Shown one piece after another: positions 6,600-14,880 of a stretch of 14,914 nucleotides of DNA; the stretch's first letter is position 1, and each line of letters begins with the position of its first letter. The DNA lies in the NCBI GenBank assembly GCA_021828935.1, contig JAJZCU010000007.1, forward strand, positions 1-14,914, written 5' to 3'. The translations under genes and the position numbers were made by a program. A model generated the notes under the pieces. It searched no databases and had not been told where the DNA came from. It was given only the letters and a program-made list of their open reading frames with translations. The DNA is from Planctomycetota bacterium. Lineage in GTDB: Bacteria > Planctomycetota > Phycisphaerae > WQYP01.

Positions 6600-7337
6600 T
6601 TGATCCTGTTAAAAGTCAACGGCCTGGTCAAACGCTACGGCGGCCGCACGGTCGTAAACAATGTTACGTTTGAAGTCGGCAGCCGCGAGGTCATCGGCCT
6701 ATTGGGCCGCAACGGCGCGGGAAAAACGACCACGTTCCGCATGGTTGTGGGCATGGTTACGCCCGACCAGGGGCAGGTGATGTTTGACGGTTTCGACATT
6801 ACCCGCCTGCCCATGTACCAGCGGGCCCGCAAGGGCATGGGCTATTTATCGCAGGAACCGTCGATCTTTCAACGCATGACCGTGGAACAAAATCTGCTGG
6901 CCATTTTGGAAACCACGCATCGCAACGGCGCGGCGCGCAAGGCCGAAGCCGAACGACTGATGGAACAATTCGGCCTCACCAAGACGCGACGGCAAAAGGC
7001 GATGACGCTGTCCGGCGGCGAGCGGCGCAAACTGGAAATCGCCCGCGCCTTGGTTACCAACCCATCGCTGATTCTGCTGGATGAACCGTTCAGCGGCGTG
7101 GACCCCATCGCCGTGGAGGATTTGCAGCGGGAGATCCGGCAACTCAGGGAACAACTGGGCAAGGCTATTTTGATTACCGACCATAACGTGCAGCGCACGC
7201 TGGAGGTCTGCGACCGGGCCATTATCATTGCCGAGGGCACCGTGCAGGCCGAAGGCGCACCCAAGGATTTAATTAACGACCCCCTGGTGCGTCAGTCTTA
7301 CCTTGGGCACACATTCAAGGGCGACGAATTCGGATAA
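6600..7337 (+). CDS. lptB: LPS export ABC transporter ATP-binding protein LptB
   Basis: A 245-residue cytoplasmic ATPase of the LptB type, which with LptF/LptG extracts lipopolysaccharide from the inner membrane for delivery to the outer membrane. It has Walker A GRNGAGKT at 36-43, a Q-loop Gln85 in YLSQEPSIF, the signature LSGGE at 137-141, Walker B LILLDEP at 157-163 and an H-loop His195 in ITDHNVQ. The segment YLSQEPSIFQRMTVEQNLLAIL and the C-terminal YLGHTF are LptB-like and separate it from the related branched-chain amino acid ATPases. It starts at TTG, with GGTGAA just upstream as a weak Shine-Dalgarno sequence; no in-frame ATG lies close by. No lptA, lptC, lptF or lptG is in the window. 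Its presence argues for an asymmetric, LPS-bearing outer membrane. Confidence 0.9.
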   Translation: MILLKVNGLVKRYGGRTVVNNVTFEVGSREVIGLLGRNGAGKTTTFRMVVGMVTPDQGQVMFDGFDITRLPMYQRARKGMGYLSQEPSIFQRMTVEQNLLAILETTHRNGAARKAEAERLMEQFGLTKTRRQKAMTLSGGERRKLEIARALVTNPSLILLDEPFSGVDPIAVEDLQREIRQLREQLGKAILITDHNVQRTLEVCDRAIIIAEGTVQAEGAPKDLINDPLVRQSYLGHTFKGDEFG

Positions 7338-7552: not shown

Positions 7553-10195
7553 TCAATGCACCCCGTATTCCTGCATAAACTTTTCAAACGCCTTGTGCCG
7601 CCGCTTTCCGCCTATCGCGGACCCGTAAATTGTCACCAGGCTTTCCAGCGAGTCGCGGGTGGCCTTCACGTTCTTGTGCATCTTCTCATTGCACTTAATA
7701 ACGAAATAATACCCATCCCAGAACGACGGCGACCCGGGAGGCAACTGCTCAATGATGCGCACCCAGAAGTCGTGGGAATAAGGGTACTTCTTGGCATAAT
7801 AGGCGGCCCGCGCCTGGCCGATGAAGTTGCGGATGTCCGCCGGGCGTTCATGTTGCAACTGTTTGAACAGCGCCATGGCCTTGGTGGCCTGACCGGCGCG
7901 TATCAGCGTGTCGGCCAAAATCTGCTGATAGCCATATACATCGCGCTTGGCATTGAGCTGGGCCCCGGCTTGCTTAATAAGCTGGCTTAACAGCGCCGCC
8001 GCGTCGCCGGCCAGCCGCTTGGCACGGGCCGGGTGGCTCTTGCGCAGCCGCCGGCTTTGCGCATCCCATTGGCCGATCAACCCCTTGATGACCTCCTGCT
8101 TGTTCTGTCCGGCGCCGCCGGCGATCTGGTCCACCACCTGCAGCACTTTGCTGTTTTTGTGCTCCAACTGGTACTGCCGAATGCGGTAACGCAGAATGGC
8201 GCTGCGTACGGCGGGGGTCAGGTCGGCGCCCATGGCCTGTAAACGCGTGAGGTCCTTCCCGGCGGCCTTGGGGTTGCGCAACGGGCTTAGGTTGGTGCTG
8301 GCCAGAATTAAATAAATATCCGGCATATACAATCGTGCGCGCTTAACCGAGGCCCCCGCCACGGTGGCCGGCGGACGACGCAACACCTGCAGGAATTGGT
8401 CGCTGCGTTGTACCAACTGGGCGGCGGCGTGCAGACGCAGTCGTTGGCTGGCCTTTTTATCTTCCAGCCGCGAAAGCCGGTCCGTGGCGATGCGCAACAG
8501 CCGGTAATGGGCGTCGAGGTACAACGGACTTGACGCTGGTACTTTATCAAACATGGCTGCGGCCTGGGCGAATTTCTTTTGCTTTTCAAGCTGATCGGCA
8601 TAGGCGAAAGCCCAGCGCTTTTCGCCGAGGTTCACGTAGGCCAGTTTCAGCGCCTTGCGCAGCAGCGCCCGCACCTTGGTGGAGGCGTGGCCGGTGTCGG
8701 TGAGTTTGGCCAATTGACTTAGCGCCAGGGCCAGCACGCTTTTGGATTTAGGATCGTGCGGGGCCATGGTGACATAGGCCACATTAAGCCGCGCCGCCGC
8801 GCTTAGCCGGCCCAGCCGTCCGGCGCAGATGCCCTCAATAAGCGTAGCCTCCAGCCGGGATGCCTTGGACGCATGGGCATTTTTCCGGACCGCCCGCGCC
8901 GCGTGAAGGGCGGTTAAATTATTAGCCCGGGTATTTTTCTGGGCGGCCTTCCACGCCAGGGCCAGCGCCTGCAGCGGCGCCATGGTCTTATAGTGGCCCG
9001 CGTGGCCGGAATTCATGACCGCGATTTGCTCATAAACCAATGGCGCGAAAGAGGGATTGGCCTTCACAATGGCGTGCAGGATGCCCACGGCCTTTTTCCG
9101 CGCCGCCGCCTGCGCCGCCGCGTTGGGCAGCGACCTGGCGCGGATCATTTCCACCCGATAGGAAAGCATTTCCACGCCGACTTTCGCGCCCGGGCCCGAC
9201 GTCTGCGGGCTCTTGCCCAGCCACTGTTGAAATGCGTCAAGTATCTTGGTGGCCTTGTCGAAACGCTTGCGCTGGGCGTACAAAAGCACCTCTTGATATC
9301 GCGCATTGTATTGCACAAACGGCGGCGCCTGGGCCACCGCGGCCTTGCGCAGGTCGCTTAATGCCCGGCTGAATTCACCCGCGGCGCTGGAGGCTTCGCC
9401 CGCCAACAACCATGACTGATACAAAACCCCCGTGCGCTTGCCGCGCTTAATCCACGGCTGCAAAAGCCGCACGCATTGCGCCATGTACTTCTTGCGCTGC
9501 GGGCCCGGCGCGGCGGCCAATCCCAGTTGATACTGCGCCTGCGGCATCAAATAACTGGCGCCGGCGTGACCGGCCTGCGCGGCGGCGTATTGGGCTTCGT
9601 CAGCGTTGGTGAACGGTTCCAAATTTTCCGTGTAGTGCATCATCCCGTAAAGCGTGATGTCCGCAATGTTTACCAGCTTCGCAAAAACGCCAGCCGACGC
9701 CGCCAGCCGACGCCGCGTGGCCGCCGTGTCCGCCACAAAGCGCACCTGCTTGGCCAGTGGGCTGGTAATATGCAAATAAATAAATCTGGCTTGGTCCAGC
9801 GCCCAGTAACCATCGAGCTCTCCGGGACGCCCGCGCAGATACAGCGCGATGTCCGCCACATATTGCCGTTCCAACTTCCGCGCATGGCGGGGCGTTCCGC
9901 CCGAAAATTCCGACATGATGGCCGCCGATTGATAGAGCGCCTTGAGCGGCGCGGTGGCGGCATGCGCGGCCCGGTATTGCAATAAGGTGGTTAAACCCGC
10001 GTCGGCAAGCCGGTCAGCAAACTGCGTATCAGAAGCCTGCAGCCCCGGCATAATAAGGTATTGTTTGGCGTTGATCTTGTGCCAGTTCATGCGGGCCATA
10101 ACCCGGCCGCAGCCGGCCATGCCCGCGATGCCCGCCCCAACCAGGACCATCGCTGCCGCCGGTCCAATTATCCTGCCAGTTCTATGCACTTTCAT
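7553..10195 (-). CDS. Large TPR-like helical lipoprotein
   Basis: An 880-residue protein from the ATG at 10195. The N-terminus has basic residues (His4, Arg5, Arg8), a hydrophobic segment at about 9-27 and a lipobox ending Met-Ala-Gly-Cys29, so it should be exported and lipid-anchored. The rest is mostly amphipathic helices with the spacing of tetratricopeptide-like repeats. The clearest are near residues 260-325, 530-570 and 755-835. The protein is Ala- and Lys-rich and has no catalytic motif I recognise. The start was chosen because GGAGG lies 10 nt upstream; a GTG at 10219 would put residues in front of the signal peptide. As last gene of the ExbB/ExbD/vWA operon it is a plausible outer-membrane or periplasmic scaffold for that complex, by loose analogy with TPR partners of Tol-Pal. 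The export signal is well supported; the function is inference. Confidence 0.8.
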   Translation of the reverse strand: MKVHRTGRIIGPAAAMVLVGAGIAGMAGCGRVMARMNWHKINAKQYLIMPGLQASDTQFADRLADAGLTTLLQYRAAHAATAPLKALYQSAAIMSEFSGGTPRHARKLERQYVADIALYLRGRPGELDGYWALDQARFIYLHITSPLAKQVRFVADTAATRRRLAASAGVFAKLVNIADITLYGMMHYTENLEPFTNADEAQYAAAQAGHAGASYLMPQAQYQLGLAAAPGPQRKKYMAQCVRLLQPWIKRGKRTGVLYQSWLLAGEASSAAGEFSRALSDLRKAAVAQAPPFVQYNARYQEVLLYAQRKRFDKATKILDAFQQWLGKSPQTSGPGAKVGVEMLSYRVEMIRARSLPNAAAQAAARKKAVGILHAIVKANPSFAPLVYEQIAVMNSGHAGHYKTMAPLQALALAWKAAQKNTRANNLTALHAARAVRKNAHASKASRLEATLIEGICAGRLGRLSAAARLNVAYVTMAPHDPKSKSVLALALSQLAKLTDTGHASTKVRALLRKALKLAYVNLGEKRWAFAYADQLEKQKKFAQAAAMFDKVPASSPLYLDAHYRLLRIATDRLSRLEDKKASQRLRLHAAAQLVQRSDQFLQVLRRPPATVAGASVKRARLYMPDIYLILASTNLSPLRNPKAAGKDLTRLQAMGADLTPAVRSAILRYRIRQYQLEHKNSKVLQVVDQIAGGAGQNKQEVIKGLIGQWDAQSRRLRKSHPARAKRLAGDAAALLSQLIKQAGAQLNAKRDVYGYQQILADTLIRAGQATKAMALFKQLQHERPADIRNFIGQARAAYYAKKYPYSHDFWVRIIEQLPPGSPSFWDGYYFVIKCNEKMHKNVKATRDSLESLVTIYGSAIGGKRRHKAFEKFMQEYGVH

Positions 10196-10302
10196 CAACC
10201 CCATGCCTCCACGGACCACATCAAAAAGCCACTGATCTCATGCGCCAGCGGCCAGTTTCACCGGGCGCAGCGTCAAGACCGCGGCGCCAACCGCGCATTT
10301 TC

Positions 10303-10773
10303 TCAATGGGCATAGGCGAAACCCACCGCTTTAAAGCGCGCCTGCGTACAATCCTGGTAAGTCGTAATAACGTCCTGGTATGGTACGCCGTTGCCGGGCA
10401 TGATCAGTATGCCCATCTTCAGGTTGTGCAGGCTGCGCAACTTGCGCTGCTTTTGCTTCAGCCACTTGGCCAACTGCCCGGAAAGGTCTTCCGTTTGGAA
10501 ATTGGCGATGGTGGCCATGGTATGGGCGCCGCGGCGGGCCAGTTTAATGTCAATGCGGGTGGCGGGCATTTTCGCGCTGCCGGTGGCCTTGTTTAATCCG
10601 CCGGTTTTAACCGCGGGCGTGTTATTGGTTAAATACAGGTCCGGCGACGCGAACGTGGTGCCCAACATAAAAAATATCAAGATACACATGACAATGTCCA
10701 CCATGGGCGTCATGTTGGGGCCGCTGTGCAACGACTGCTTGGACAACCCGCGATTTTTCTTTCCTGATTGCAT
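10303..10773 (-). CDS. ExbD/TolR-family biopolymer transport protein, second copy
   Basis: A 156-residue inner-membrane protein. After a short basic cytoplasmic N-terminus comes the family motif NMTPMVDIVMCILIFFML at about 20-37, with Asp26 at the position of the proton-carrying Asp25 of E. coli ExbD. The remainder is a periplasmic domain. An AAGGA Shine-Dalgarno sequence lies about nine bases before the ATG. Between helix and domain it carries a Thr/Asn/Lys-rich stretch (about 45-70) that the first ExbD copy lacks. It lies 86 nt after that copy and 107 nt before the lipoprotein gene, in the same direction. It should sit in the pore of the ExbB-type channel and use the proton motive force. 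The family is clear; the partner is inferred from context. Confidence 0.9.
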   Translation of the reverse strand: MQSGKKNRGLSKQSLHSGPNMTPMVDIVMCILIFFMLGTTFASPDLYLTNNTPAVKTGGLNKATGSAKMPATRIDIKLARRGAHTMATIANFQTEDLSGQLAKWLKQKQRKLRSLHNLKMGILIMPGNGVPYQDVITTYQDCTQARFKAVGFAYAH

Positions 10774-10859: not shown

Positions 10860-11291
10860 TCACCGTCGGGTCATAAAATTGACGTTGGTAATGCCCGCCT
10901 CGGTGGCGTCTTCAAGCACCGGCGCGATAAATTTATAAGGCAGATGCGCGTCGGCCCGCAGCACCAGCTTGGTTCTTGGGTCCAGACGCTTCTCCTGCCG
11001 CATCAATTGCACCAGCTTGTCGGGCAATACGTCCTGCTGAAACACGACAATGGTCGGCTGATCACGGTAGTCCAGCGGCTTGTGCGGCACTAAATTCACA
11101 ATCAGTTCGTGCTTCTTGATGGCCATGTCCTGGGCGTGCTTGGCGATGGGCACATGAACCCCTTTCACGGATTCGCCGCGGGCCAACTGGCCGCACACCA
11201 GGAAGAAAATAATCAGGCACATGACCACGTCAATTAAGGGGGTTACATTGACGTGGTCGTCGTGCATTGGTTGCATGCCGCGCTTAACCAT
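10860..11291 (-). CDS. ExbD/TolR-family biopolymer transport protein, first copy
   Basis: A 143-residue protein with one N-terminal transmembrane helix. The motif NVTPLIDVVMCLIIFFLV at about 15-32 contains Asp21, which matches the essential Asp25 of E. coli ExbD. A periplasmic domain of roughly 105 residues follows, with an LVLRADAHLPYKFIAPVLE segment typical of the family's conserved alpha/beta fold. GAAAGGAC upstream of the ATG serves as Shine-Dalgarno sequence. It follows the ExbB-type gene by only 47 nt and precedes a second, divergent ExbD copy, as is frequent where two ExbD proteins share a channel. Whether they form a heterodimer is inference. Confidence 0.92.
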   Translation of the reverse strand: MVKRGMQPMHDDHVNVTPLIDVVMCLIIFFLVCGQLARGESVKGVHVPIAKHAQDMAIKKHELIVNLVPHKPLDYRDQPTIVVFQQDVLPDKLVQLMRQEKRLDPRTKLVLRADAHLPYKFIAPVLEDATEAGITNVNFMTRR

Positions 11292-11338: not shown

Positions 11339-12181
11339 TCAGGCCTCGCTGGTGGAAGATGGCGCCGGGCTGGGCGCCGCGCGGCGCGGGCTGGGACGCG
11401 CGGTGGCGCCGCGGCCTTCGCCGGACTTTTGGTCGGGCCGTAATGATTCCAGCAACTCTTCGGACAGCAAACTTGCCTTCATGGTTATTTTGTCAATTTT
11501 TGTTCGGTAGAAGCCAAACACCACCAGAGAAGGAATAGCCACCGCCAGGCCGCCAAACGTGTGCCACAGCGCCACAGAAATGCCCCCAGCCAATTGCGCG
11601 GGTTTGGCCGCGCCATTGGCGTTGTGCAGGGCTTCAAAGGCCATGATCATGCCCAGCACGGTGCCCAGCAGGCCGATCAGCGGGCCAATGTTGCCGATGA
11701 CATTCAACAATTCAATTCGGCGGAATAAGTTGGATGTTTGCTCGCCGGTACTGGATTCCAAACCTTCGCGCATGGCGGAGTAACCAAGGTGCGCGCGGCG
11801 GATGGCGGTGTGCAGGGCGCGGCTGACAAACGAATCATCCGTGCCGGTGAATTCCATGAGCTCATCAAACTGCCGGGCATTAATAAGCGTGCGAATGTGT
11901 TCGGTGGAATCTTCCGGCAGAATGCGACTTTCGCGCACATGAATCGCGGCGTCAATGATCAGCGCAATGCTGCAGATGCTCGCCAGGATCAATACGCCGA
12001 TGACCATGTAATCCAATATAAGAAAGAACACGTTGACATGACCTGTCCCGGCGGCGGCCGCCGCCGCGGGACCACCGCCGCCGGCCGCCATGGCAATGTG
12101 ACCCAGGCCCACCACTGCGCCCACCAGCAACGTGGCCAGCAGGCCCACCCGAAACTTTGATTGTGCGTACCGGGAAAACAT
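11339..12181 (-). CDS. MotA/TolQ/ExbB-family proton channel protein
   Basis: A 280-residue inner-membrane subunit from the ATG at 12181, which has CAGGAG seven bases upstream; an in-frame start at 12232 is poorer. A signal-peptide-like N-terminus ends near AMA-AGGG (30-36). The three family helices follow at about 50-77, 162-184 and 203-226, with a cytoplasmic loop between the first two and a basic, Pro/Ser/Ala-rich tail. Helix 2 has NIGPLIGLLGTVLG, in which Thr174 matches E. coli ExbB Thr148. Helix 3 reads ISVALWHTFGGLAVAIP. Thr208 matches ExbB Thr181, but Val203 stands where ExbB has Glu176. The gene lies between the vWA genes and the two ExbD genes, so it should form the pentameric channel of this operon's motor. 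Confidence 0.92.
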   Translation of the reverse strand: MFSRYAQSKFRVGLLATLLVGAVVGLGHIAMAAGGGGPAAAAAAGTGHVNVFFLILDYMVIGVLILASICSIALIIDAAIHVRESRILPEDSTEHIRTLINARQFDELMEFTGTDDSFVSRALHTAIRRAHLGYSAMREGLESSTGEQTSNLFRRIELLNVIGNIGPLIGLLGTVLGMIMAFEALHNANGAAKPAQLAGGISVALWHTFGGLAVAIPSLVVFGFYRTKIDKITMKASLLSEELLESLRPDQKSGEGRGATARPSPRRAAPSPAPSSTSEA

Positions 12182-12273
12182 AAGGACGCTCCTGAAACTA
12201 AAAAAGCCGCTAAAAAAATTGCCAATTATCACATTTCGCCGGCGCCCTTGCGTCCGGCATTTCCGCGCGGCGG

Positions 12274-13413
12274 CTACGATCCGCCGAAGAAATCCTTGCT
12301 GCTTAACACCTTGAATTTTCCGCCGCTTTGTTCGGCGATTTCCCGCAGATGCTTGGTGATCTGCGGCAGCGTAAAGTCGTTATTACCGGTGCCGCCCAGA
12401 TACTTGCCGGCGTTTCGTCCAATGCAGGCATACGCCACGATGCGAATGCGCTTGCCGGGATTGATTTTGCGAATGGCCGCCACCAGTTTGGGATTAAACC
12501 GGCCATCGGTAAGGAAATAGACCAACTGCGGTTTAAGCGCAAAGGCGGCCCGCAACGGGCGGTAAAACTTACTGTAAGAATAGGTGTCCGCCCCCTGTGC
12601 CAGCACGGCCTTAAGCCCGCGGCGGGCCATGCGTTTGGTGCGGCTGGTGGCTCGCACCAGATGCGTGGGGCCGATAAATTTATAATGGTCGGAAAAGGTG
12701 ATGACGGCAAAGCGTTGAATGGGCTGCAGGTTTTCAATGCTGCGAATGGCCTTGCGTTTAACTATGTCAAAAATGTCAACCATGAACCCGGAACTGTCCA
12801 GCACATAAACAATTCGCGTGGCGTTCCCCCCCGCCACGCCCATGAAGTTGCTTTGCGGGCCGATGCCGCTGCCCCCGCCGCCCACGCCAAAGCTGGCCAA
12901 CGCCCCGCCGGAGCCGCCCACCCCGGCCGTGTCGCTGGCGCCGCCGGTGGAGCCCACGGCAATCATGCTTGATAAATTTTTGCCGCCGGTGCCATTTAAT
13001 AAAGTAGCCGCGGACACGCTCATATGCTGGGCGAAGCCGTGGGCGTTGAGCAGTTTCTTTTCCTGCTGCCGGGCCTTGTGCAGGGGGTCTTCCTTGGTGC
13101 CGGGGTTGGGAATGCCACCGGGGTGCTTCGTATACGGGCTGTTCATGGCCATGGGAATGATGATCGGGTGGGCTTTTTTCTTAATAACATGCTTGGCAAT
13201 AAGCACGCCGAAAAGCAGCAGAACAAACAGCCCGAGGTGCAACAGAAAACTGGCCAGCCACGGAAAGGCCTGCTCCACGCGGTCGTTGTGCGCGGCGCCT
13301 TCCACCGGCTCTGATGGATCGGCGGGATCAACGCTGTTCACAGGATCAGCGGTCGTGTCCTGATCCTGCTGCGCCGATGCTTTCCGCGCATTGGACGCGA
13401 ATGTTTCTGCCAT
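12274..13413 (-). CDS. TonB-like membrane anchor fused to a vWA-type domain (paralogue 1)
   Basis: A 379-residue protein. An acidic, Asp/Pro-rich cytoplasmic N-terminus is followed by one transmembrane helix at about 52-73 containing SFLLH (Ser55, His59), the Ser-x-x-x-His pattern by which TonB couples to ExbB. A conserved PIIIPMAMN motif (84-91) and a charged helix lead into a Gly-rich linker (about 143-187). The C-terminal vWA-like domain starts at IVYVLDSSGF (201-210) and includes FAVITFSD, Thr277 in GADTYS and Asp303 in LTDG. The metal site is incomplete: Phe210 replaces the second Ser of DxSxS. The domain should be periplasmic. GAGGAG lies eight bases before the ATG. It is about half identical by eye to the next gene upstream, with the same DFFGG C-terminus. 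The ExbB-type gene begins 92 nt downstream. The vWA call is strong; the TonB-like role is inference. Confidence 0.85.
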   Translation of the reverse strand: MAETFASNARKASAQQDQDTTADPVNSVDPADPSEPVEGAAHNDRVEQAFPWLASFLLHLGLFVLLLFGVLIAKHVIKKKAHPIIIPMAMNSPYTKHPGGIPNPGTKEDPLHKARQQEKKLLNAHGFAQHMSVSAATLLNGTGGKNLSSMIAVGSTGGASDTAGVGGSGGALASFGVGGGGSGIGPQSNFMGVAGGNATRIVYVLDSSGFMVDIFDIVKRKAIRSIENLQPIQRFAVITFSDHYKFIGPTHLVRATSRTKRMARRGLKAVLAQGADTYSYSKFYRPLRAAFALKPQLVYFLTDGRFNPKLVAAIRKINPGKRIRIVAYACIGRNAGKYLGGTGNNDFTLPQITKHLREIAEQSGGKFKVLSSKDFFGGS

Positions 13414-13750
13414 CGTTTACACTCCTCGGACGCTTTTCCTAAAGGCAACCGCCGTGCCACGCCGATAATCGCCGTCGCGCGGCCGTCGGATCCGGCGTCC
13501 GGGGCCGGGGCCGGCTTTCAGTCATACAATGGCGGTAATCGCCTGATTTACTGGGGTTCCCGCTGAAAACTGGATCATTTCGCAGAGCCGTTTGGAAAAA
13601 ATCGCCCCTGATTATCGTGTGGCCAATCGCCGCGGGATACCTGTAACGCATCTACAATTACTTGTGACAAATTTGGCAAAATCCGCAGGTCATGTGACGC
13701 CGTTGTCACGCGCCGGCGAACGACGTTCGCACCATCTCTTGAGCCGGGAT
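13414..13750. other. Spacer between the vWA paralogues with small inverted repeats
   Basis: No gene is seen in these 337 bases. On the minus strand TTGTCA (13665-13670) could be a -35 box for the downstream vWA gene, but the hexamer 18 bases on (TTACAG) is a poor -10 box. Small inverted repeats are TTGT-G-ACAA (13662-13670), GTGAC-N6-GTCAC (13694-13709) and GCGAACG-A-CGTTCGC (13716-13730). The last lies 20 nt past the upstream gene's stop and could act as an mRNA hairpin. The gap may therefore hold an internal promoter, but this is not demonstrated. Confidence 0.4.
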
Positions 13751-14833
13751 TTATCGCCCGCCGAAAAAGTCTCGGCCACTGATCACCTTAAACTTCCCAT
13801 GATTTTGCGCCGCAATTTCGCGCAGACGCCGCTTGATATTGGGCAGCGTGAATTCATTGTGCCCGTTGCCAGGCGCAAACTTGGCGTTCCGGGAAATACA
13901 TGCATAAGCCACAATGCGCACCTGCTGCCTGGCATTAAGTCGGCGAATCGCAGGCGGCAACTTGGCGCTGAAATGACCGTCCGTCAGGAAGAAGATCAAC
14001 TGTGGTCGCAGGGCGAAAGCCGCCCGCAACGGCCGGTAAAACTTGCGGAAAGAATAGGTATCCGCTCCCTGGGCCACCACCGCAAGCAGGCTGCGGCGCA
14101 GGCGGCGTTTGGCCCGCGCCGTGGCGCGCACCAATCGGGGCGGCCCTACAAAATGATAGCGGTCGGAAAAAGTAATCACTGCAAAGCGCTGCACCGGCTG
14201 CATTCGGGCCACGGAATGCATCACCTTCTGTTTGACAATATGAAACACGCTGGCCAGGGCGCCGGAGCTGTCCACCACATAAACAATGCGCGTGGCATTG
14301 ACGCCCTCGCCAAAAATCTGGGACCTAAGGCCAGCCTGGTTTCCGCCTCCGCCCAAGCCGTATGGCGCCATGGGTCCGCCCGAATCCCCGAGTCCCACAT
14401 GCCCGTGGAGCCCCCCGGTAGATCCGACGGCAATCATGTGGCTGATGCTCTGCCCGCCGGCGCCGGTTAATAATGCCGAGACATTGGGCGCGATTTTATT
14501 CGCAAACCCCGATGCGTGCATCAAACGTTCCCGTTGCTGTTTGGCCTGCCGCAGCGGATCGTGCTTTGTGCCGGGGGTGGGAATCCCGCCGGCATTACGG
14601 TGGAACGCCGTGTTCATGGCAATGGGAATGATGATCGGTCGCGCCCGCGCGGCCATGACATGCCGGGCGACGCCATAGGCAAACAGCGCCAGCAGGGCCA
14701 GCCCCAGGTGAAGCAGAAAGCTGGCCAGCCACGGAAATGCCCGTTCCATGGGCGGTTGGTTTGTTCCGGGCGCTTCTTCGGCCGGCCGGTACGGGGAAGG
14801 AATAAACACTTCGGGGGGCAGTGTCTGGGCCAT
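13751..14833 (-). CDS. TonB-like membrane anchor fused to a vWA-type domain (paralogue 2)
   Basis: A 360-residue paralogue of the next gene, with the same architecture. It has a short Pro-rich N-terminus, a transmembrane helix at about 35-56 with SFLLH (Ser38, His42), PIIIPIAMN at 66-74, a charged helix, a Gly-rich linker (about 135-165) and a vWA-like domain from IVYVVDSSGA (183-192). Metal-site residues Asp188, Ser190, Thr259 and Asp285 are kept, but Ala192 replaces the second Ser of DxSxS. It ends in DFFGG plus Arg. The start at 14833 was chosen because AGGAG sits seven bases upstream; an in-frame start at 14875 has no such signal. It is the first gene of the operon visible here. Conserved residues lie in the membrane helix, juxtamembrane motif and vWA core, which suggests both copies use the same ExbB/ExbD channel. 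Confidence 0.85.
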   Translation of the reverse strand: MAQTLPPEVFIPSPYRPAEEAPGTNQPPMERAFPWLASFLLHLGLALLALFAYGVARHVMAARARPIIIPIAMNTAFHRNAGGIPTPGTKHDPLRQAKQQRERLMHASGFANKIAPNVSALLTGAGGQSISHMIAVGSTGGLHGHVGLGDSGGPMAPYGLGGGGNQAGLRSQIFGEGVNATRIVYVVDSSGALASVFHIVKQKVMHSVARMQPVQRFAVITFSDRYHFVGPPRLVRATARAKRRLRRSLLAVVAQGADTYSFRKFYRPLRAAFALRPQLIFFLTDGHFSAKLPPAIRRLNARQQVRIVAYACISRNAKFAPGNGHNEFTLPNIKRRLREIAAQNHGKFKVISGRDFFGGR

Positions 14834-14863: not shown

Positions 14864-14880
14864 CTTATTAGGCAATCCGC

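Follow-up and report, generated by a model that had tools for sequence, protein, structure and literature searches.

We found that two adjacent genes in the window (the whole stretch of DNA analyzed here, 14,914 nucleotides), vWA-A and vWA-B, likely encode force transducers of the TonB/TolA type whose end domain is a vWA domain; we infer their docking on a motor, the force they deliver and the partner they hold. This TonB-like reading is well supported by sequence and model, because the Ser/His motif of the membrane helix is invariant among anchored homologs of the first set, the genes are linked to exbB and exbD in an operon, the neighboring ExbB retains partner residues and the proteins have a three-part fold. 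The first-pass annotation had proposed a TonB-like transducer ending in a vWA-type domain, and the same four lines lend that proposal strong support. The genes concerned are as follows.

13751..14833, minus strand: vWA-B, 360 aa from ATG; helix with S38/H42 (SFLLH); vWA domain with a MIDAS-like DSSGA
12274..13413, minus strand: vWA-A, 379 aa; helix 44-78 with S55/H59 (SFLLH); PIIIP at 83-87; mostly disordered linker; vWA domain at about 188-379 with a MIDAS-like DSSGF
11339..12232, minus strand: ExbB/TolQ-like motor subunit, 297 aa, PF01618; S85, P234, T191 and T225 conserved
10860..11291, minus strand: ExbD/TolR-like subunit 1, 143 aa, PF02472; PLIDVV with the proton-carrying Asp
10303..10773, minus strand: ExbD/TolR-like subunit 2, 156 aa, PF02472; PMVDIV
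7553..10219, minus strand: P, 888 aa; hydrophobic N-terminus, predicted all-helical TPR-type solenoid; usually the last gene of the operon

All six genes run in one direction on the minus strand, in the order vWA-B, vWA-A, ExbB, ExbD, ExbD, P. Coordinates and the PF01618/PF02472 matches bear out the earlier description of two vWA genes directly upstream of ExbB and ExbD genes in one orientation, and the SFLLH helix that it reported in both proteins does lie within a block common to them (FPWLASFLLHLG; S55/H59 in vWA-A, S38/H42 in vWA-B), the overall identity being 55-58%, varying with the aligner. For vWA-B a longer frame from a TTG at 14875 is also possible; the protein database entry of its own copy (P0003) has 360 aa. 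The motor genes are clear by Pfam and the vWA domains weak, with PF00092 scoring 24.7 bits in vWA-B against a cut-off of 23.8 and PF13519 scoring 22.5 bits in vWA-A, below its cut-off of 27. Scans for sigma-70 promoters and terminators gave signal near shuffle level. The host genome (54% complete, in 490 contigs) encodes a third vWA paralog, which has SVLLH in its helix and whose gene lies at the end of a different contig.

Homologs were first collected as 60 stretches (full-length matches first, some vWA-only), which together with the third paralog's contig and the window make 62 sequences. These hold 81 vWA-like frames, 74 of them membrane-anchored and seven without an SxxxH helix. Both S55 and H59 are kept in 74/74 anchored homologs and are the sole invariant positions of the transmembrane helix, the next most conserved being Trp52 (60/74); the alignment thus agrees with the expectation that Ser and His would be the most conserved helix positions. 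When all collections were pooled, the set came to 151 vWA-like frames, no two identical in their letters (148 once cut copies of one gene are collapsed): 140 with SxxxH, including two (L136 and L206) scored after the script had first chosen another helix, three with AxxxH, one with TxxxH and the seven already mentioned, which have no SxxxH helix. Ser and His do not vary freely, since SxxxH is found in 140/144 anchored frames and the other four retain the His, in a sample that leans to close relatives because its phylum-level loci are the best 30 of many matches. The background frequency is low: among 607 other open frames that have a hydrophobic helix, some of which may not be genes, 10 show SxxxH within the same 31-residue span. 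Judged from these sequences, the SFLLH motif of the vWA helices is not a chance occurrence. As a yardstick, nine strong TonB_C proteins of the same class comprise six with SxxxH, one with AxxxH and two with neither, by which measure the vWA proteins hold to the motif no less strictly than these TonBs do. The full SHLS pattern, with Leu at His+7 and Ser at His+11 (spacing from PMC12905483), is absent, as neither of the two outer positions is conserved; vWA-A itself has Leu66 but Val70. No ExbB was found in the stretches that contain six of the seven motif-less frames, and the seventh lies upstream in an operon locus; signal peptides, in these frames as in the second TPR-like protein described below, were judged by eye or by simple patterns only.

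The operon recurs within Planctomycetota, the homologs in named records coming nearly all from uncultured bins labeled Planctomycetota, Phycisphaerae or Phycisphaerales; the window thus most likely belongs to the same class. An ExbB gene was found in 41 of the 62 sequences, accompanied by an anchored vWA gene in 41/41 and by P in 38/41; because loci were sampled around vWA genes, the 41/41 shows consistency and not an unbiased rate. Among 48 named loci, many of them from genomes already in the first set, vWA and ExbB occur together in 42 and P as well in 39. Linkage of the vWA gene to exbB/exbD, as anticipated in the first-pass annotation, is therefore common (42/48 named loci), but it is not universal. 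Many second vWA copies stand alone, and 13 of 20 wider phylum-level stretches show no ExbB close to the vWA gene, which is not an unbiased rate because the 20 were picked partly for having no motor in their short flanks; two of the 13 retain the second TPR-like gene. Unlinked vWA copies still carry SxxxH, one having Thr in place of Ser. Conversely, in two genomes of one genus in the window's family (G010 and G016) the motor has just one ExbD, and the stretch examined contains no vWA gene; the G016 contig is cut on the downstream side, so the presence of P there cannot be judged. ExbB with a single ExbD and no adjoining vWA gene is seen at L114:7112-8442 and L115:197-1524, in one genus of the family. 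A further motor cluster, divergent in sequence and comprising ExbB, two ExbD and a weakly P-like protein, adjoins the vWA operon in two loci (L197:1-5461 and L205:702-4870); the one in L197 also includes a vWA-like gene with SVIAH. Four vWA proteins without SxxxH stand in a row at L091:6249-9735 (G006, same family), with no motor genes nearby.

The vWA assignment is weak by sequence and firm by model. In the AF2 model of vWA-A, built from 52 sequences (mean pLDDT 72), a confident helix at 44-78 is followed by a mostly undefined chain to about residue 187, broken by a short helix (residues 110-123), and then by a confident vWA domain from about residue 188 to the end, which matches PDB vWA domains in Foldseek. 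No TonB_C (PF03544) match was found in the window's vWA proteins, nor among the families matched by the 52 aligned members. Just after the helix of vWA-A is the PIIIP box (83-87), in which P87 is kept in 59/74 homologs and position 86 is I or V in 67/74. In TonB, the D-box QPISVTMVTPAD lies directly after the membrane anchor and is bound by the ExbD pair (PMC10907165). Because the PIIIP box is shorter, with three residues between its prolines as against seven in the D-box, and is not modeled as a strand in AF2, where confidence is low, its likeness to the D-box is suggestive only.

On the motor side, the 41 operon ExbB proteins keep S85 and P234 in 40/41 each and T191 and T225 in 41/41. In E. 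coli, TonB Ser16 and His20 contact ExbB Ser34 and Trp38, and Trp38 touches Pro190 (PMC12215075); the TM1 Ser of the motor is reported in the same paper as a contact of the Ser and His of TonB and TolA. Alignment to solved TolQ equates S85 of the window's ExbB with this TM1 Ser, four residues before a Trp, and the Trp position is occupied by Ile, Val or Leu in 37/41. The operon ExbB thus retains two of the three partner positions (Ser and Pro kept, Trp replaced), and in these alignments the replacement is a real difference from the TonB-contacting motor. A pattern match located the pore Asp of ExbD in 77 of 85 ExbD-like frames; it can be seen in six more, and the remaining two are long frames.

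P is modeled as an all-helical solenoid (mean pLDDT 87), for which Foldseek returned generic helical solenoids with low TM-scores. TPR_14 was matched in 19 of 31 aligned P members; the window's own P is without any Pfam match, and a protein search with it returned its own copy and one weak relative, nothing else. P was also considered as a conserved lipoprotein, which we reject because 27 of 39 P-like frames have no lipobox match in the first 160 residues; the window's P has a lipobox-like AGC, by a loose pattern match only. Other families encode, between the vWA and ExbB genes, a second TPR-like protein of mostly 355-422 aa, represented by 14 frames, 10 of which (query included) were recovered using the first as query; of the 10 that were scanned, five have TPR matches (one above cut-off) and five none. 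The TPR-type proteins of the operon presumably resemble CpoB of the Tol-Pal system.

The metal ion-dependent adhesion site (MIDAS) of vWA domains requires DxSxS and a further Asp. It is intact in 41 of the 74 anchored homologs, and is thus far less conserved than the Ser/His motif. Both window proteins lack the third MIDAS Ser (DSSGF and DSSGA), and retain the further Asp; the third paralog of the same genome has an intact site. Ten tandem pairs were found in the family, and in 9/9 besides the window's the upstream copy is MIDAS-intact and the ExbB-adjacent copy altered, both copies of all nine retaining Ser/His. Because upstream and ExbB-adjacent copies form two separate groups in the tree, one old duplication may explain these pairs, and the nine should not be treated as independent of one another. 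Intact sites do not run through the whole upstream group: eight of its stand-alone members (L061-L068) are altered. The window's own two proteins group together (support 0.997) and represent a separate duplication.

The first-pass annotation knew of no described system of this design, a view that has to be given up, as has the candidate of an undescribed class: vWA force transducers (Tichowtungia-type) were described in June 2025 by Williams-Jones et al. (PMC12204202), with a Ser/His motif helix and a vWA fold encoded beside tolQ-like, paired tolR-like and TPR genes, and were reported in Planctomycetes and other phyla. Gliding is suggested there, and the function is given as unknown. The window's proteins share with that class the docking helix, the disordered linker and the vWA end domain, as well as the tolQ-like, paired tolR-like and TPR neighbors (the window's TPR assignment resting on its relatives), and differ in being tandem transducers. 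The terms MIDAS and metal ion do not occur in the main text of PMC12204202, which thus contains no split between MIDAS-intact and MIDAS-degenerate copies; nor do the sections compared contain a family census of motors, TonB_C, TolB and receptors. The kind is thus already known, and what we add is the quantified invariance of Ser and His, a provisional near-monopoly on the family's motor and the MIDAS split; as no function was given when the class was published, the census and the paralog split serve to narrow an existing question and do not open it. A 2026 review (PMC12905483) cites PMC12204202, and vWA is absent from its main text; no other description of the class was found among the literature matches listed (titles and abstract openings, leaving aside subscription papers and preprints).

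Compared with TonB, the window's proteins have the same single N-terminal helix with SxxxH, a linker and ExbB/ExbD neighbors, but a vWA domain in place of the TonB C-terminal domain, in a family where receptor plugs are rare. TolA shares the docking motif, and among solved structures the best relative of the window's ExbB is TolQ, but no TolA end domain was seen and TolB_N is absent from the matches in the genomes searched. The TPH-vWA proteins of PMC12204202, a TolR-replacing kind, are likewise membrane-anchored vWA proteins encoded beside a TolQ-like gene; as described there, they are without the Ser/His motif and exbD genes and have the pore Asp, whereas the window has two exbD genes and its vWA helices have no conserved Asp in columns 52-70. 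We therefore rejected this kind for the window's proteins.

The system likely works as follows. We infer that the N-terminal helix of each vWA protein would dock outside the ExbB pentamer through its Ser and His, as supported by the AF3 complexes of homologs in PMC12204202, in which the helix is docked on the motor through the His. The short post-membrane box would possibly be gripped by the ExbD pair, the long, mostly disordered linker would place the vWA domain in the periplasm, and the passage of protons through ExbB/ExbD would cause that domain to be pulled or released while it holds a periplasmic or outer-membrane partner. Gene order, the one line of evidence used here, makes the co-encoded TPR-type P the most likely partner or scaffold, joined in other families by the second TPR-like protein, and two or three vWA transducers appear to share one motor. 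The presence of several vWA copies per motor, with MIDAS-degenerate copies adjoining ExbB, would also suit a vWA protein that docks on ExbB as a regulator or scaffold, gating the motor in response to a ligand or holding the TPR-type protein near. We regard this as unlikely, because about 110 mostly undefined linker residues, as in TonB and TolA, better suit reach across the periplasm and because TonB and TolA are reported to meet the motor through the same docking residues (PMC12215075). Less probable still, and hardly to be expected, is that the motif is kept for helix packing or vWA dimerization and that the operon reflects a shared pathway without contact; although unlinked copies retain the motif with no adjoining motor, they can use a motor in trans, and neither the conservation of two of the three ExbB partner positions nor the presence of SxxxH in 6/9 strong TonB_C proteins of the class fits such a role. 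A force transducer thus remains our preferred reading of the vWA proteins.

What such a transducer would serve can be approached through the other possible clients of the motor. Of the 28 genomes in the window's family, 25 have at least one strong ExbB-type motor, taken as a PF01618 match at E below 1e-15, and 23 have exactly one. The only strong motor found sits in the vWA operon in 20/28 genomes (20 of the 23 with one), the three single-motor genomes with the motor elsewhere being G009, G010 and G016. TonB_C matches number 30, in 23/28 family genomes, and most of them are not motif-bearing TonBs, a candidate that we rejected because SxxxH is absent from 11 of the 12 loci examined (of these, two are truncated by the end of the locus and one is a fragment of 99 aa); the exception, in G008, occurs with a receptor plug. 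Five loci (L103, L104, L105, L112 and L113) encode proteins, about 360-400 aa long, that end in a TonB_C-like region and whose membrane helix has Ser without His; no receptor plug domain was found in their genomes. Among the loci examined, the vWA proteins would thus be nearly the sole SxxxH clients of one strong motor, a near-monopoly that is provisional because the genomes are drafts and 18 of the 30 TonB_C matches lie outside the examined set.

This census bears on the possibility, compatible with a force transducer and naming its purpose, that motor, vWA rod and TPR-type proteins are the lineage's replacement for Tol-Pal and tether the outer membrane during division. It is consistent with the sole strong motor of most family genomes lying in the vWA operon, with receptor plug domains in only 2/28 family genomes, with TolB_N in 0/61 genomes by a profile search whose control matched 3/14 known genomes, and with OmpA/Pal-type domains in 59/61 genomes (none in the scanned window proteins). 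We consider it possible but somewhat doubtful, since plug domains (14/61 genomes searched) and strong TonB_C proteins occur in other vWA-bearing families of the class, no division gene was recognized within the window, and a profile search of draft genomes may miss a divergent TolB. A broader purpose can be put forward just as tentatively: with receptors and TolB missing from most or all of the genomes searched, the system would be this family's general outer-membrane energizer, replacing both Ton and Tol-Pal, in which one motor with an unequal ExbD pair drives a matched set of vWA rods, some able to bind a ligand through the MIDAS and others that have lost the site while retaining the motor docking. 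If the force-transducer reading is true, TonB and TolA are not the only proteins moved by ExbB/ExbD-type proton motors, and vWA rods may be the main client of the motor in a bacterial family. The near-absolute conservation of Ser and His offers a clean mutational test of docking, and the MIDAS split offers a handle on what the vWA rods hold.

Beyond P, an LptB-type LPS export ATPase gene (window 6600-7337; TIGR04406, above cut-off) converges on the operon, and gyrB and guaA lie farther along on the plus strand of the window.
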